NCBI GenBank assembly: GCA_017617415.1 | Contig: JAFZWH010000091.1 | Coordinates: 1-64,000, forward strand | DNA length: 64,000 bases | Origin: Victivallales bacterium | GTDB taxonomy: Bacteria; Verrucomicrobiota; Lentisphaeria; Oligosphaerales; Oligosphaeraceae | Direction of reading: 5' to 3' | Shown here: piece after piece, positions 55,625 to 62,727 of the stretch | How the letters are laid out: every line of letters begins with the position of its first letter | How positions within the stretch are numbered: position 1 is the first letter of the stretch | Notes under the pieces: model-generated | What the model was told of the DNA's origin: nothing | Database searches by the model: none | Seen by the model: only the letters and a program-made list of their open reading frames with translations | Position numbers and translations under genes: made by a program

Positions 55625-57688
55625 ATGAAAAGTGAAACGCTTGTCCAAATCGTAAATAATACGCATACACACAGCCTTACGCTTTTTTCAAAGGATGAAA
55701 TCGCTTGGCTAGAAAAACGTATCTTCACGCGGAAAACAAAAAAAGGCGAGGAATATGCCGTTAAATGTATTGTTCGTGATAAGGATATCAAGTTGACACC
55801 TGAAGAAATCGTACGACAACTTTATGCCCACCGCCTTATTGATGAATATGGTTATTCTGTTTCACGTCTTAAGTTTGAATACCCTGTGTATTTTGGCCGA
55901 GAGAGAAAGTCGGCAGATATTGTTGTTCGTGACAAAGACGACCTTAATACCCCTTATATCATCATCGAAACGAAGCAGCCTATGGCAAAAGATGGACGCG
56001 AGCAGCTAAAATCATATACACTCGCAACAGGCTCGCCAATAGCCGTTTGGACAAACGGAGAATCTATCACGTATCATCAACGTAAAGATCCAAATTTCTT
56101 TGAGGATATCCCAGACATCCCAAACGAAAACCAGTCGCTTTCAGATATTCTTAACAAACCTTTTACACTTGAAGACCTTATCCGTGAGGACAAATTAACA
56201 AAGACTGGAAAGTCTTTGAAAGACCTTATTCTTGAAATGGAAGACGAAGTTCTTGCCAATGCAGGTGTTGACGTGTTCGAGGAGGTATTTAAACTTATCT
56301 TCGCCAAACTTTATGACGAGAAAAGTGGGGCGCAATATAAGGGCTACAATCTCAAATTCCGCAACTCTGGCCAAAGTAACACTGAATTAAAAGAAAAGAT
56401 TGAGTCCCTTTTCAAAGAGGCATGTAGCGAATGGCCGGGCGTTTTTCCAGATGATGCAAAAATAGCCCTTACGCCTCCACATCTTTCAATATGTGTTGCA
56501 TCGCTTGAAACGGTCAAACTTTTCAACTCAAATCTTGATGTTGTTGATGATGCTTTTGAGTATCTGATGAATAAATCATCGAAAGGCGAAAAGGGACAGT
56601 ATTTCACGCCACGCTATGTGATTGACATGTGTGTAAGAATGCTCAACCCCAAACCAACGGAAACAATGATTGACACAGCGGCGGGATCGTCGGGGTTCCC
56701 TGTGCATACTATCTTCTACGTCTGGCGACAGATGCAACTTGACGCAAATAAGGAAATTAGTCATCTTTTCACCGCCTCACCCAAAGGAAAAGAAGAAATT
56801 GATTATGTTCGTAACAAAGTGTTTGCCATCGACTTTGATGAAAAGACCGTACGTGTCGCACGGACTCTGAACCTCATTGCCGGAGACGGACATACTAACG
56901 TCTTGCATTTGAATACTCTCGACTTCGGACGATGGGATACCGTCACGAAGCAACAGGAGTGGACCGACACGTATAATGAAGGCTACAAAAAACTTCGCAA
57001 ATTGGAGTGCGATCCGTCCCACGCCTATTTCGAGTTTGACATCCTGATGGCCAATCCCCCTTTTGCTGGCGAGATAAAAGAAGGACACCTTCTTTCGCGC
57101 TATGAATTCGGCTCAAAGAATGGCAAGCAACAGAAGAGCGTAAGTCGCGACATCCTTTTCATTGAGCGCAACATCAATTTCCTTGGAGCGGGGGGACGCA
57201 TGGCCATAGTCCTTCCACAAGGTCGCTTTAATAATGTAACCGACCAATACATTCGCCAGTTTATCGCCGACCGTTGTCGCATCCTCGCCGTCATAGGTTT
57301 AGACGGCAATACCTTCAAGCCCCACACGGGGACCAAGACGAGCGTCCTTTTTGTACAGAAATGGCAGAACGACAAAAATAAACCAAACTACAACCCCAAA
57401 CGCGACGATTACCCCATCTTCTTTGCGACCCAACGCAAGGAGGGCAAGAATTCGCGTGGTGATAAAATATTCTGGACAAAGGACAAAAACGGGACGACAA
57501 CCGATCCCAAACTTGCTCTCCTTGACCAATACGGACATCCTATTGTCTATCACGACCTCTTCGCAACCTACAACTACATTTGGGACGAAAAGGCGAAAAC
57601 CAATCGCCTTAAGCAATTGACTCCTGACGGTATCGCAGAAGCATTCGCTCAATTCGCTGCAAAGGAGAAATTAAGTTTTTTTCGCTGA
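55625..57688 (+). CDS. HsdR_N-type nuclease fused to N6-adenine DNA methyltransferase
   Basis: 687 residues. Residues ~45-150 match the type I restriction enzyme R N-terminal domain (PD-(D/E)xK fold): 'YPVYFGRERKSADIVV' gives Asp98 and 'YIIIETKQP' gives Glu115 and Lys117. Residues ~200-640 are a HsdM/N6_Mtase domain: 'KGQYFTPRYVIDMCVRML', SAM motif I 'MIDTAAGSSGF' (~348-357), and catalytic motif IV 'FDILMANPPFAG' with NPPF at 477-480, followed by 'GHLLSRYEFG' and 'GGRMAIVLPQGRFNN'. No helicase/translocase exists here, so the protein resembles single-chain type II (BcgI-like) RM enzymes that work with a separate S subunit. The stop codon (57686-57688) lies within a putative -1 frameshift cassette. 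Clearly AT-richer than the host genes. Confidence 0.88.
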   Translation: MKSETLVQIVNNTHTHSLTLFSKDEIAWLEKRIFTRKTKKGEEYAVKCIVRDKDIKLTPEEIVRQLYAHRLIDEYGYSVSRLKFEYPVYFGRERKSADIVVRDKDDLNTPYIIIETKQPMAKDGREQLKSYTLATGSPIAVWTNGESITYHQRKDPNFFEDIPDIPNENQSLSDILNKPFTLEDLIREDKLTKTGKSLKDLILEMEDEVLANAGVDVFEEVFKLIFAKLYDEKSGAQYKGYNLKFRNSGQSNTELKEKIESLFKEACSEWPGVFPDDAKIALTPPHLSICVASLETVKLFNSNLDVVDDAFEYLMNKSSKGEKGQYFTPRYVIDMCVRMLNPKPTETMIDTAAGSSGFPVHTIFYVWRQMQLDANKEISHLFTASPKGKEEIDYVRNKVFAIDFDEKTVRVARTLNLIAGDGHTNVLHLNTLDFGRWDTVTKQQEWTDTYNEGYKKLRKLECDPSHAYFEFDILMANPPFAGEIKEGHLLSRYEFGSKNGKQQKSVSRDILFIERNINFLGAGGRMAIVLPQGRFNNVTDQYIRQFIADRCRILAVIGLDGNTFKPHTGTKTSVLFVQKWQNDKNKPNYNPKRDDYPIFFATQRKEGKNSRGDKIFWTKDKNGTTTDPKLALLDQYGHPIVYHDLFATYNYIWDEKAKTNRLKQLTPDGIAEAFAQFAAKEKLSFFR

Positions 57689-57729
57689 TCCCCTTTGACA
57701 AGTCCCGTTACGAGGAATTGTCAAAGGGG
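57661..57729 (+). promoter_or_regulatory. putative programmed -1 frameshift cassette joining methyltransferase and specificity frames
   Basis: From 5' to 3': an internal Shine-Dalgarno AAAGGAG (57661-57667), 8 bases, the slippery heptamer T TTT TTT (57676-57682) in the right phase (zero-frame codons TTT TTT at 57677-57682), a 7-base spacer containing the zero-frame TGA, then a perfect 11-bp stem CCCCTTTGACA (57690-57700) / TGTCAAAGGGG (57719-57729) with an 18-base loop. A -1 slip continues straight into the specificity frame, which is open here. The arrangement mirrors the dnaX-type signal: SD, slippery site, stem-loop. Alternatives are CTG initiation at 57685 (CTGA overlap) or TTG at 57718. 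Confidence 0.6.
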
Positions 57730-59121
57730 TTGGAGATTAGCGAAGTCTTTCTCTCGGCATTAGAGCGAACATGGCGACTTGATGCAGAATTCTACGCCAA
57801 GGAACACATAAGGATTAATATGCTCTTACGAGCAATTAGATCTATTCCCTTGAACAAATTTGCATCGATTTCCGATGGAAATCACCTGGGAGTTAGCGAG
57901 GATTTTTGTTCGGAAGGTGTACCATATTTCCGTGGTGGCGACATCAAGGAGTTCTTTTTGTCATTTGGGAAACCAGATTATTGTGTGCCACAAAACGTAT
58001 ATGAAAAACCGACAATGTTGCGATCGCACATGAAGAAAGGCGATGTTTTTGTTTCCATTGTCGGCGCAATTATTGGCCAGATCGGCATGAAGACTGATGA
58101 TGCACCTGCATTGTGCAGTTGCAAACTTGGCATACTCCGCCCCAATAATATTAAGACAAGCGCATATCTTGCGGCGTTCCTCATGTCATCAATGGGACAA
58201 TCACAGATACGACGTTTTAGGCGAGGTTCAGCGCAGACAGGATTGATTCTTGACGATTTCGATCAATTGCTTGCGCCTGAATTCTCGGATAGATTTTACG
58301 ATAAGGTTACCAAAATAATACAAGCGGCACTAAATGCAAGAAGTGGCACCATTGCCAGAATTCAAAACGCCGAACAGTTGTTGCTTGCTGAACTTGGCTT
58401 TGCCAACTGGTCGCCGACCGAAGAAACAACGAGCGTAAAGAATTATTTGGATATTGTTTCAGCAGGGCGATTTGACGCCGAATACTTCCAACCGAAGTAT
58501 GATGAACTCTTCGCATTGCTTTCAAAGTGCAAGGTTCGTCCACTTAGTGGTAAGGATGGTGTGGTCGATATTCAGAGGTCAATCGAACCGGGAAGTGAAA
58601 TCTACTCTGATAAAGGCATTCCATTTGTGCGAATTGCAGACTTTTCGGAGATGGGCATTACAAAGCCGGAGATTCACATTCCACCAGAAATTTGTACCGA
58701 CATCCCACGGCCGAAAAAAGACACTATCCTCCTTTCGAAAGATGGAAGTGTCGGCATCGCCTATAAGGTCGAGGAGGATTTGGATGTTGTCACATCTAGC
58801 GGTATACTCCATCTGACAGTGAAAGACAATTCAGTACTACCAGACTTCCTGACGCTTGTTCTTAATAGTATAATTGTCAGACTTCAGGCGGAGCGTAGTG
58901 CAGGTGGTTCCATCATCCAACATTGGAAGCAATCGGAGATTGAAAATGTGCTAATCCCAATTCTGACAATGTCAAGTCAGCAAAAGATTGCCGCAAAGGT
59001 TCAAGAGAGCTTCGCCCTACGCCGTAAATCCAAGCAACTTCTCGACCTCACCAAACACGCCGTCGAAGTGGCGATTGAACAAGGCGAAGACAAGGCTGTT
59101 GACTTATTGGAGAATCAATAA
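57718..59121 (+). CDS. hsdS: type I/IIB-like restriction specificity subunit (HsdS)
   Basis: 467 residues if begun at TTG 57718. The frame is open further 5' and 'IPFDKSRYEELSKGLEISEV' looks like conserved N-terminus, so TTG is probably not the true start; see the frameshift cassette. Two target-recognition repeats are visible. 'RTWRLDAEFYAKEHIRINML' begins the first, 'SAGRFDAEYFQPKYDELFAL' the second near residue 247. Each is followed by a variable TRD ('GDIKEFFLSFGKPDYCVPQ'; 'GIPFVRIADFSEMGITKPEI') and a helical spacer ('IIQAALNARSGTIARIQNAE'; 'QKIAAKVQESFALRRKSKQL'). It should recognise a bipartite DNA target and direct the fused nuclease/methylase. The stop overlaps the TIR gene start (TAATG). 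Confidence 0.88.
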   Translation: MSKGLEISEVFLSALERTWRLDAEFYAKEHIRINMLLRAIRSIPLNKFASISDGNHLGVSEDFCSEGVPYFRGGDIKEFFLSFGKPDYCVPQNVYEKPTMLRSHMKKGDVFVSIVGAIIGQIGMKTDDAPALCSCKLGILRPNNIKTSAYLAAFLMSSMGQSQIRRFRRGSAQTGLILDDFDQLLAPEFSDRFYDKVTKIIQAALNARSGTIARIQNAEQLLLAELGFANWSPTEETTSVKNYLDIVSAGRFDAEYFQPKYDELFALLSKCKVRPLSGKDGVVDIQRSIEPGSEIYSDKGIPFVRIADFSEMGITKPEIHIPPEICTDIPRPKKDTILLSKDGSVGIAYKVEEDLDVVTSSGILHLTVKDNSVLPDFLTLVLNSIIVRLQAERSAGGSIIQHWKQSEIENVLIPILTMSSQQKIAAKVQESFALRRKSKQLLDLTKHAVEVAIEQGEDKAVDLLENQ

Positions 59122-59969
59122 TGCAAATGGATTATAAAACAATTCTTGCAACCTGTATGCGACTTAAAGATACTGTAGTGGTGGAAAATGTTTCTCTGCT
59201 TATGTCGAATACCTATTTGTTGTATCAATCCATGCAACCATTAGTCAGCCAAACTTTGAAGCCATTATTGAGAGAGGTGGACAATTTAGCCTCTGCATTA
59301 CCAATTGAGTTTGAAGCACAAAAACAATTCCTTGTCACAGATAACAAGAAGTGCATAGCGGAGTCAAATGTTGATTGGTTGTTTGGTTTGGGTGCGCTCG
59401 TTCGGGATTTGGATAATTTATACGCGATTGTTAATTCGCAAGACCATGTGATTAAAAACAAAGAAGCGGATATTAAGGGGACTTGTAAAAAGATATTTAT
59501 CAGCCACTCGTCCAAGGACAAAGAGATTGTTGATTCATTTGTAACATTGCTGACTCGTGGTGGTGGAATTGCGCAGGATGACATCTTCTGTACATCCATC
59601 GATGGAATTAAGATTGCGAATGGCGAGGATATCAGGAAACATATTCAGGAGAACGTCAACTACGCTGATTTTGCAATTCTGTTGGTTTCAAAAAATTACA
59701 AGGAAAGTGAAATATGTCTGAATGAAATGGGGGCGGTGTGGGCCATAGATAAGAGGGTTAAAGCTTACGTGTTTCCTGATTTGAAAGAAGAAAGTGTCGG
59801 TTGGTTGATTAACAACAATGCGGCGGAAAAATTGAATAATCCAACTGCGCTGGCCTCTCTATACGAGGAGTTACAGCAATTCTATAAATTACCTTTGTCA
59901 ATAACTGGTTGGACGGCTCAAGCAAAAGCATTTTGCGATAAATTTGCATTACATTACGTCACTGTGTGA
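59121..59969 (+). CDS. TIR-domain protein with N-terminal helical sensor region
   Basis: 282 residues. The TIR domain covers ~123-258: 'CKKIFISHSSKDKEIVDSFV' is box 1, 'DDIFCTSIDGIKIANGEDI' and 'ADFAILLVSKNYKESEICLN' follow, and Glu202 in 'CLNEMGAVW' sits at the usual catalytic NADase position. Residues 1-115 are helical with no family recognised and could be the trigger-sensing part. Bacterial TIR proteins commonly degrade NAD+ or make cyclic ADP-ribose signals in abortive defence. The start ATG shares a base with the hsdS stop and its stop overlaps the next gene's possible GTG (GTGA), so all are co-translated. AT-rich like the neighbours. Confidence 0.88.
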   Translation: MQMDYKTILATCMRLKDTVVVENVSLLMSNTYLLYQSMQPLVSQTLKPLLREVDNLASALPIEFEAQKQFLVTDNKKCIAESNVDWLFGLGALVRDLDNLYAIVNSQDHVIKNKEADIKGTCKKIFISHSSKDKEIVDSFVTLLTRGGGIAQDDIFCTSIDGIKIANGEDIRKHIQENVNYADFAILLVSKNYKESEICLNEMGAVWAIDKRVKAYVFPDLKEESVGWLINNNAAEKLNNPTALASLYEELQQFYKLPLSITGWTAQAKAFCDKFALHYVTV

Positions 59970-59989
59970 CTACAAGAAAGGATCTCCTG

Positions 59990-62008
59990 ATGGCAAGTCA
60001 AATAACAAGTGAACTTGATGGTATCGTCGCACTTATTCGAGATTTCAAGTCGAAACCATTGATGCCGCTTTTTGAGGCACTGGTGAATTCAATTCAGGCT
60101 ATTGAAGACCGATTCCAAGGTAAGTATGACGAAGGAAAGATCAGAGTCATAATCAAAAGAGCGGCACAGCGAGAGTTGGACTTTAAGGATGGAAATCGAC
60201 GGGAGCCAAAGATATTGGGGTTTCAAATTGTAGATAATGGCATCGGTTTTACTGATGAAAATCTGGCGTCTTTTAAACTTATGGCATCCAAGCAAAAAGC
60301 AGCTCGCGGAGGAAAAGGGATTGGTCGTTTCACTTGGCTAAAGGCATTTGACGACGTAAAGATTTTAAGCGTATATGAGGATGCGAATGGGGAGAAGAAG
60401 CAACGCGAGATAGAATTTTCATTGCAACATGGCATAAAAGATTCTTCCCCTGTTGCTGTGGAGGAAAAGACGCCGATTCAGACAATTGTCTCTCTGAATA
60501 AATTTAAGCCTGCCTACCGCGATCTCCCGGCAGCCTATAGGACGACGGAAAAAATTGCACAAAGGATTCTGGAGCATTGTCTGGTTTCATTCCTTGCAAA
60601 TAAGGTCCCTGATATTGTCGTGATGGACGATTCGAACGAGAATTCGTGCTTACTAGCTCAGATGTTCAATGACGACATCAAGCCGCAGATAACGACGGAT
60701 AGGATTGATGTGGGAAAAGAACACTTTACTTTGACAGAAGTGAAGCTGTATGGAACCAATGCACAAATGCATCGCTTGGTGTTTTGTGCAGATTCACGGG
60801 AAGTGACTACATGCGATATAGGAAAGCGATTGGGCACGACGATCCAATTTGATGAAAAGGGGAAAAAGTTCGTGTATGCAGTTTATGTGACTGGTACATA
60901 TTTAGATTCGCATGTATTGCCGACGCGAGATGATTTTACCATACCAGAAGAATCGGCACCGCTAGACGCGGAGGCACCTATTGGGCGTAGTTCGATTGAA
61001 GAAGCGGTTGTTACACATGCAAGACAGTATTTAAAGCCATACTTGGACTCTCTGCAAACAAAACGCAAAGAGCTTGTTGAGGGATATGTTGCGGAAAAGA
61101 ATCCGGCATTGCGAGCCGTTGTTAAATACTGTCCTGAGGCATTAGAGGAGATAGACCCAAATTCGTCGGATGAGAAGATAGATGAAGTGCTGTATCATCA
61201 TAAGGGCAAGGTGGAATTTGAAATCAGGCGGAATAGTGAGAAGTTGTTGAAAACGCAGGCGGAATCGTTTAATGGAAGTGAAGAGATCATAAAAGAACTG
61301 GCGGAAAAGTATGATGATTTCCAAAAAGACAACCTTGCCGCATACGTGACATATAGAAAGTTTGTCATAGAATTGTTTAAGAAGAAGATTGCATCACGAC
61401 CAGATGGAAGTTATGTAGACGAGGAGATATTGCATGATATAATCTTCCCAAGACGAACTGATTCGGATGTTATCGGATTTGATAATCATAATCTGTGGCT
61501 TATTGATGATAGGTTGGCCTTCCACGCATGCGCCATGTCGGATAAGGAAATCCGTGAGTTTATGGACAGTGATTCTGCCGATAGACCAGATATTGTTGCC
61601 TTTGCTGATGTAGATCCAGACACGCGCGTTGCAAGGACTGTTTCGATAATAGAGTTTAAAAAAACTAATCGTACAAATTACAGAGACGAGAAGCCGCCAG
61701 AACAAGTGCAGAGAATGCTTCGCCAAATACGCGAAAGCAAGCATGTCTTGGTCGATCATGGGCGACCTATCCACATTTCACAAGAAGACACTCAATTCTT
61801 GTGCTATGCCATTTGTGATTTTACGAAACCCATTCATGATTGGGCAGAAGAGAATGATTATGCAAAAGTGCATGGCGGGTTTGCGTATTACTACTACAAC
61901 AGGAATTTAAATGCGAGTATATATTTAGTCAACCTTGACCAGATTGCCATTGATGCCCGGAAACGTAATTTTGCTTTCTTTGACAAGCTTGGGGTTAAAT
62001 GCACATAG
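59990..62008 (+). CDS. GHKL ATPase with C-terminal PD-(D/E)xK-like nuclease domain
   Basis: 672 residues from ATG 59990, preceded by AAGAAAGGA; a GTG at 59966 overlapping the TIR stop would add eight residues. The HSP90/MutL-type ATPase domain is unmistakable: N-box 'LFEALVNSIQAIED' (~28-41), G1 'QIVDNGIGFTDENL' (~80-93), G2 'RGGKGIGRFTWLKAF' (~106-120). A middle domain resembling the transducer region follows. The C-terminal ~170 residues contain 'DRPDIVAFADVDP' (Asp ~531-533) and 'VSIIEFKKTNRTNY' (Glu ~554, Lys two further), a D-xn-ExK arrangement like Shedu/PD-(D/E)xK nucleases. ATP-driven clamp plus nuclease is the inferred logic, analogous to MutL but with an unrelated nuclease. I know no named defence family with this pairing beside TIR and RM. 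Confidence 0.8.
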   Translation: MASQITSELDGIVALIRDFKSKPLMPLFEALVNSIQAIEDRFQGKYDEGKIRVIIKRAAQRELDFKDGNRREPKILGFQIVDNGIGFTDENLASFKLMASKQKAARGGKGIGRFTWLKAFDDVKILSVYEDANGEKKQREIEFSLQHGIKDSSPVAVEEKTPIQTIVSLNKFKPAYRDLPAAYRTTEKIAQRILEHCLVSFLANKVPDIVVMDDSNENSCLLAQMFNDDIKPQITTDRIDVGKEHFTLTEVKLYGTNAQMHRLVFCADSREVTTCDIGKRLGTTIQFDEKGKKFVYAVYVTGTYLDSHVLPTRDDFTIPEESAPLDAEAPIGRSSIEEAVVTHARQYLKPYLDSLQTKRKELVEGYVAEKNPALRAVVKYCPEALEEIDPNSSDEKIDEVLYHHKGKVEFEIRRNSEKLLKTQAESFNGSEEIIKELAEKYDDFQKDNLAAYVTYRKFVIELFKKKIASRPDGSYVDEEILHDIIFPRRTDSDVIGFDNHNLWLIDDRLAFHACAMSDKEIREFMDSDSADRPDIVAFADVDPDTRVARTVSIIEFKKTNRTNYRDEKPPEQVQRMLRQIRESKHVLVDHGRPIHISQEDTQFLCYAICDFTKPIHDWAEENDYAKVHGGFAYYYYNRNLNASIYLVNLDQIAIDARKRNFAFFDKLGVKCT

Positions 62009-62070: not shown

Positions 62071-62727
62071 ATGAAGCAAAAAGGCGTTATCTACATTCTG
62101 ACGAATCCGGCGTTTCCTCAATATGTCAAGATTGGGTATGCGCAGGATTTGGAGAAACGGCTTAAGCAGCTGAATCGTAGCGAGACGATTCCGTATGCCT
62201 TCCGTGCATATGCGGTGTATGATGTCGAAAGCGAACTGACCGACAAGGATCTTCATGCGATTATCGACAGCATAAACCCCGATCTGAGGACAATCGAGAA
62301 CTTCGACGGCAAGAAGCGCGTCAAGGAGTTCTATGCGATGTCCGCCGAGGATGCGTATCACCTGCTGGAGTGCATTGCAAAAATCAGCGGGACCACCGAC
62401 CGCCTGAAGCGCATGAAGCCAGAGGGGCACGAAATTGAAGATGAAAACACGGCGCGCGAGGTGCAGGATGCGGCGCGGCGCGGTCCGTTCCGGTTCAGCA
62501 TGTGCGGAATCAGTGCCGGAGCGCAGGTCGTGTTTGTGAATGACGAGAGTAAAAAGGCTATCGTCGTGGATGATCGCCACGTCAGATTTGCCAGTGAAAC
62601 CACATCTCTTTCTGCACTCGCAAAGCAGCTCCTTGGTTGTGACCATCAAGTCCAGGGAACGCTCTACTTCTCCTACAACGGCATAATCCTTGACGACATT
62701 CGCAAAGAGCGGGAGGCGGGTAATTAG
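62071..62727 (+). CDS. GIY-YIG (T5orf172-type) nuclease-like protein with RAMA/DUF4357-like C-terminus
   Basis: 218 residues. Residues 1-100: 'KGVIYILTNPAFPQYVKIGY' and 'DLEKRLKQLNRSETIPYAFR' match the T5orf172/MUG113 branch of GIY-YIG domains. Residues ~135-210: 'PFRFSMCGISAGAQVVFVND', 'KAIVVDDRHVRF', 'TSLSALAKQLLG' and 'VQGTLYFSYNGIILDD' match the RAMA-like module predicted to recognise modified DNA in restriction and methylase proteins. It lies 62 bases after the GHKL gene, but its base composition is GC-richer, like the host. Probable role: accessory nuclease or sensor in the defence region. Confidence 0.78.
   Translation: MKQKGVIYILTNPAFPQYVKIGYAQDLEKRLKQLNRSETIPYAFRAYAVYDVESELTDKDLHAIIDSINPDLRTIENFDGKKRVKEFYAMSAEDAYHLLECIAKISGTTDRLKRMKPEGHEIEDENTAREVQDAARRGPFRFSMCGISAGAQVVFVNDESKKAIVVDDRHVRFASETTSLSALAKQLLGCDHQVQGTLYFSYNGIILDDIRKEREAGN

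Follow-up and report, generated by a model that had tools for sequence, protein, structure and literature searches.

Established cases of programmed frameshifting include dnaX, transposases and phage genes. Among restriction-modification systems, the type IIB enzymes BcgI and BsaXI consist of two RM subunits to one specificity (S) subunit, i.e., 2RM:1S (PMC3874165, PMC11997821), and the ratio of one RM to two target-recognition regions (TRDs) in the single-chain enzymes AloI and CjeI has been called a mystery (PMC3874165). In E. coli, C_CC.A_AA.G, G_GG.A_AA.G and AAAAAAG are the heptamers most prone to shifting, and H_HH.U_UU.Y is counted among the efficient ones (PMC4066793). Here, we describe the junction of an RM gene and its S frame in a stretch of 64,000 nucleotides from a Victivallales bacterium (contig JAFZWH010000091.1, positions 1 to 64,000)—hereafter, the window. 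The best explanation for this junction, to which we assign a probability of roughly 0.88, is -1 programmed ribosomal frameshifting that sets the ratio of RM to S in a type IIB-like (RM)2S enzyme.

The RM gene of the window lies at positions 55625-57688 of the forward strand, on which all features described below are located, and encodes in the zero frame a 687-residue free enzyme ending in KEKLSFFR. Pfam places an HSDR_N_2 nuclease (PF13588) at residues 59-166 and an N6_Mtase domain (PF02384) at residues 304-610; the protein also matches the PADLOC model PDLC03034 MTase_I (1.4e-294), and its best PDB sequence match is RM.BsaXI (8w0p). The S frame matches Methylase_S, and the assembly holds one copy of the RM/S system. 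An earlier note on this DNA had proposed a dnaX-type signal at the end of the RM gene, and all of its elements are present at the positions given. An SD-like AAAGGAG inside the RM frame, a probable stimulator (57661-57667), is separated by an 8-nt gap (57668-57675) from the slippery heptamer T_TTT_TTT (57676-57682), which stands in exact -1 phase (AG/T TTT TTT). A 7-nt spacer, CGCTGAT (57683-57689), follows and holds the zero-frame stop TGA at 57686-57688, one codon past the heptamer, where the free RM ends. The putative stimulatory hairpin comes next, with a 5' arm CCCCTTTGACAA at 57690-57701, a 16-nt loop and a 3' arm TTGTCAAAGGGG at 57718-57729, the latter containing the first TTG of the S frame (57718); its stem is indeed perfect, but counts 12 bp and not the 11 bp of the note. 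The -1 frame stays open between 57628 and 59121 and offers no ATG ahead of the conserved S region. Entered after a slip, it would run from 57682 to 59121, first through the linker IPFDKSRYEELSKGLEISEV and then through a specificity subunit with two TRDs. The RM-S product predicted for a -1 slip (55625-59121) comprises 686 + 479 codons, or 1165 residues; this length and that of the 687-residue free enzyme match those given earlier.

Among the six proteins encoded between 55625 and 63466, Pfam shows no helicase or translocase of the kind expected of an HsdR subunit. Downstream of S, at 59121-59969, lies a gene for a TIR-domain protein (SpbK-like, PADLOC 3.8e-36); its ATG and the stop codon of S overlap in TAATG, which would fit translational coupling to the R-M operon. 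Directly after it, a 680-residue protein (59966-62008) gave no Pfam, NCBIfam or PADLOC match, and its N-terminus looks GHKL-ATPase-like by eye. A T5orf172 (GIY-YIG-like) protein at 62071-62727, assigned to the PADLOC candidate defence family PDC-S57 (4.7e-99), belongs to the same apparent defence island. A defence-system link between the R-M genes and the TIR gene with those following it was considered and dropped, as tblastn found no match to these genes in the other homologous loci.

To compare junctions, homologues were gathered by RM protein similarity alone—a procedure that leaves the sample blind to the junction—from same-order and same-phylum genomes, plasmids, phages, GTDB genome contigs (80 loci) and viral contigs (11). 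We read 96 RM/S junctions in full, and six further junctions from a phylum search agree with them; a scan of viral contigs with an in-frame fusion (L039) as the query gave no match. The downstream frame was -1 in 82 of the 96 junctions, 0 (a fusion) in 12 and +1 in 2. Of the 82, L003 and L093 are set aside as lacking an RM-S overlap: in L003, another gene intervenes and S has its own start, and in L093, no recognisable S adjoins RM. This leaves 80 of 96 as true -1 overlaps. The -1 phase is common to these 80 loci, which represent 11 named phyla and include plasmids, viral contigs and isolates, and the RM/S family as such is spread over at least 11 bacterial phyla. The assembly behind the window is a draft in 176 contigs, and the length of the T-run can vary (L043 and L055), both of which could point to a decayed or mis-sequenced fusion whose -1 relation arose from a chance homopolymer indel. 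This account is scarcely credible, however, given the same phase in 80 loci from 11 named phyla, with nearby zero-frame stops and a conserved hairpin; for the family, conservation rules out assembly error.

Near the end of RM, every one of the 80 -1 junctions has an X_XXY_YYZ heptamer in phase, against a chance level of 0.0077 per codon in RM genes. Three classes are represented: U_UUU_UUY in 58 loci (TTTTTTT 44, TTTTTTC 14), G_GGA_AAR in 21 (GGGAAAG 20, GGGAAAA 1) and C_CCA_AAG in one (CCCAAAG). The RM tree requires at least four changes for the G-type on well-supported branches. A telling case is L002, where TTT is used in none of the 31 other Phe codons, yet T_TTT_TTT stands at the junction. 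Against this reading, U_UUU_UUU falls outside the strongest E. coli heptamers, and T7-T8 may also cause RNA polymerase slippage. Such slippage would yield RM-S by another route, the polymerase adding a T on T7 and the edited mRNA being translated normally; T7-T8 is present in most relatives, and slippage on stretches of 9 As or 9 Ts has been documented in bacteria, Thermus dnaX included (PMC5009743). We nonetheless reject transcriptional slippage as the general mechanism because 22 of the 80 relatives carry a non-homopolymer heptamer (GGGAAAG, GGGAAAA or CCCAAAG) with the exact codon phase kept. Moreover, the 14 T-type loci with TTTTTTC have six Ts only, and the conserved hairpin and the SD-like bias fit ribosomes. 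We hold this explanation to be improbable, while a minor contribution of transcriptional slippage may occur in T-type loci. Two related Bacteroidales MAGs, L043 (7060-7090) and L055 (7063-7093), have T5 in place of T6 or T7 and S in the +1 frame; their hairpin is intact, and one added T would give a standard T_TTT_TTC signal. In L068, a T7 without a hairpin lies beside a short S frame.

The proposed ribosomal frameshifting at the heptamer also finds a counterpart in codon choice upstream of it. At T-type junctions, the Lys-Glu codons located 8 nt upstream are written AAGGAR in 49 of 69 cases, as compared with 139 of 474 in the bodies of RM genes (p = 6e-11). At G-type junctions, the same Lys-Glu codons are 14 nt away and show no bias (AAGGAR in 5 of 17). 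An SD-like bias restricted to the T-type fits a weaker heptamer that would need an SD-like helper.

The hairpin is conserved as a structure. It mostly starts 3-7 nt past the heptamer in almost all loci, around 5-6 nt being typical, and its stability exceeds that of recodings in which synonymous changes leave the S peptide intact, with a mean z of -4.0 over 91 loci and values below -2 in 88 of them; in the window, z was -6.5 against 200 recodings of the same peptide, none of which was equally stable. When 58 sequences are aligned without gaps, 87.7% of the cells pair, a share that falls to 59% or less if the partner is shifted by one column. Covariation in the stem of the same 58 sequences amounted to 0.296 versus 0.193 after shuffling, a value reached by 0 of 500 shuffles. 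The best pair, 18-51, joins the third base of a Pro codon with the third base of a Glu, Asp or Lys codon, and is UA in 35 sequences, CG in 15, AU in 5, UG in 2 and GU in 1, with no mismatches (n = 58). The association of T with A and of C with G persists among the Pro-Glu rows alone, in which neither change alters the peptide (Fisher p = 4e-7). In L009 and L099, the pairing partner has shifted in position and the hairpin is still strong. The alignment proposed earlier as a check on the frameshift thus returned both a conserved heptamer and a stem kept through compensatory synonymous changes, with an in-phase heptamer in every -1 homologue. In the in-frame fusion of Methylovulum (L070, 6960-7050), an unrelated REP-like palindrome replaces the hairpin at the same distance from T7.

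A further possibility is that S is translated on its own, by independent or coupled initiation at a rare start codon—ATT at 57670, CTG at 57685 or TTG at 57718—after termination of RM. In RefSeq, S of a Klebsiella plasmid does begin at a TTG within the hairpin's 3' arm, as does S of the nearly identical E. coli loci (present in 3 of 5426 genomes), and two more distant homologues, L106 and L108 (RM identity of 41% and 28%, respectively), have separate S genes with an ATG at the RM stop. Within the -1 family, however, no start codon is common to all loci, and in all 80 the S frame lacks an ATG before the end of the heptamer; the finding that the earlier note had named as overturning the frameshift, homologues without T7 or stem in which S has an ATG of its own, was not encountered among them. 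Initiation at CTG, ATT or TTG is rejected because there is no common start codon and none in the window has a well-spaced SD, its TTG sitting inside the hairpin. The peptide ahead of this TTG, singled out before as conserved-looking, is conserved in the S frame across relatives and plainly coding in the in-frame fusions, where it is translated; after the heptamer, pairwise peptide identity is 0.62 in the S frame, with no stops, versus 0.42 and 0.39 in the remaining two. Independent initiation would, in addition, leave the heptamers and the -1 stops of the fusions unexplained, and we judge it very unlikely. Current annotation accordingly truncates S in E. coli and Klebsiella by placing the RefSeq start at a TTG within the hairpin. 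The TTG-started RefSeq S subunits (L109, 5034; L006, 7004) lose the conserved linker peptide.

The signal is absent from homologues in which RM and S are separate genes. L003 and L105 belong to the same RM family and end in SFW in place of SFF, with no heptamer; an unrelated gene lies directly 3' of RM in both, and S starts further on in L003. The signal is likewise missing from L106 and L108. With a separate, ATG-started S in these distant relatives, the frameshift is therefore a feature of one clade. A Thermus match (L111) was considered as a second RM-S family and dropped, as it proved to be a shorter, 658-residue protein of the M-S type.

The 12 in-frame RM-S fusions (e.g., L005 with 1179 residues and L039 with 1182) show the same signal from the opposite side. 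Eleven of them have the usual full-length S, namely, nine from cyanobacteria (including plasmid pAQ6), one from Selenomonadaceae and one from Methylovulum; the cyanobacterium Picosynechococcus PCC 7002 is a natural host of this in-frame layout. T7 is kept in all 11, the next -1-frame codon after it is TGA or TAA in all 11, and the hairpin is clear in 10, the weak one being that of L049, which runs off its contig. In these genes, a -1 slip would release free RM. The conservation of T7 with an immediate -1 stop indicates that coding for both RM and RM-S is maintained whichever frame is the default, and the RM tree places at least four changes for the fused state on well-supported branches. Since the slippery motif and the default frame change repeatedly while the two products appear to be kept, both RM and RM-S are evidently needed. 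The twelfth fusion, L059, is the only one without a -1 stop and without a hairpin, and has lost the first TRD, leaving one TRD per RM.

Complete S parts have a median length of 487 residues. The structure of S was modeled with AlphaFold on the in-frame homologue L039; overall confidence was low, with a mean pLDDT of 47 in the RM half and mostly 60-87 in the S part, so the S half alone was used. It displays a TRD-helix-TRD-helix arrangement, i.e., two TRDs and two helical spacers, with the S subunit of BsaXI as the best fold match and type I S structures matching as well. The S parts of L034 and L053, of about 727 residues, apparently contain three target-recognition regions instead of two.

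Taken together, recoding at the RM/S junction is strongly supported by the comparative sequence evidence. In the mechanism that we propose, a single mRNA would carry RM in the zero frame and its S in the -1 frame. Many ribosomes would terminate just past the heptamer and release free RM, while the hairpin, helped by the SD-like sequence, would hold a fraction of them and allow a -1 slip on U_UUU_UUU, giving RM-S. The second TRD of RM-S would need a second RM, which free RM would supply; pairing of the two would let one two-TRD S be served by two RM units, as in the (RM)2S of type IIB. A shift rate near one half would produce RM and RM-S in equal amounts, as in dnaX. The sequences themselves establish the anatomy of the junction, its conservation, the covariation in the stem, the turnover of heptamers and the inversion of frames; actual slipping in cells, its rate and the assembly of RM with RM-S are what we infer. 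The role in stoichiometry, taken by itself, is probable by analogy with BcgI and BsaXI and in light of one natural single-TRD fusion (L059), and we lean, somewhat cautiously, towards the broader view that a whole clade of type IIB-like enzymes would build (RM)2S from the RM and the frameshifted RM-S of one cistron pair.

The earlier note had known of no restriction system of this kind, and the open-access papers searched yielded no description of recoding or frameshifting in a restriction-modification system; an unindexed mention is possible. In the accessible portion of a 2016 review, the sole match to "restriction" was a reference about HIV; among the matches listed from a 2013 survey of frame transitions, the subjects are cloning enzymes and phase variation. 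What would be new here is the control of a type IIB-like enzyme by a cassette of the dnaX type.

The likeness to dnaX (tau/gamma) lies in the internal SD-like sequence, the in-phase heptamer, the nearby hairpin and two products with a common N-terminal part. The in-frame fusions have the layout of E. coli dnaX, with the long product in frame and a -1 stop; the window has the reversed layout, with the long product made by shifting, as described for a few dnaX genes (PMC5009743). The heptamer differs, being A_AAA_AAG in dnaX and U_UUU_UUY, G_GGA_AAR or C_CCA_AAG here, and the gene is that of a restriction-modification enzyme. The IS3 family and IS911 share the same heptamer classes with downstream structures (PMC4066793), but their product is a transposase fusion and not an R-M system. 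With BcgI- and BsaXI-like type IIB enzymes, the locus shares a nuclease and a gamma-type N6 methyltransferase in one chain, plus an S with two TRDs; published RM and S are, however, separate proteins or one fused chain, and frameshifting goes unmentioned in the descriptions read. The single-chain RMS enzymes AloI and CjeI resemble RM-S in carrying RM and then two TRDs in one polypeptide, and differ in that here free RM would be co-produced, restoring a ratio of 2 RM to 2 TRDs. A family that encodes both RM and RM-S opens to direct test the question raised in PMC3874165, namely, how one RM joined to two TRDs in a single chain can make a working enzyme.
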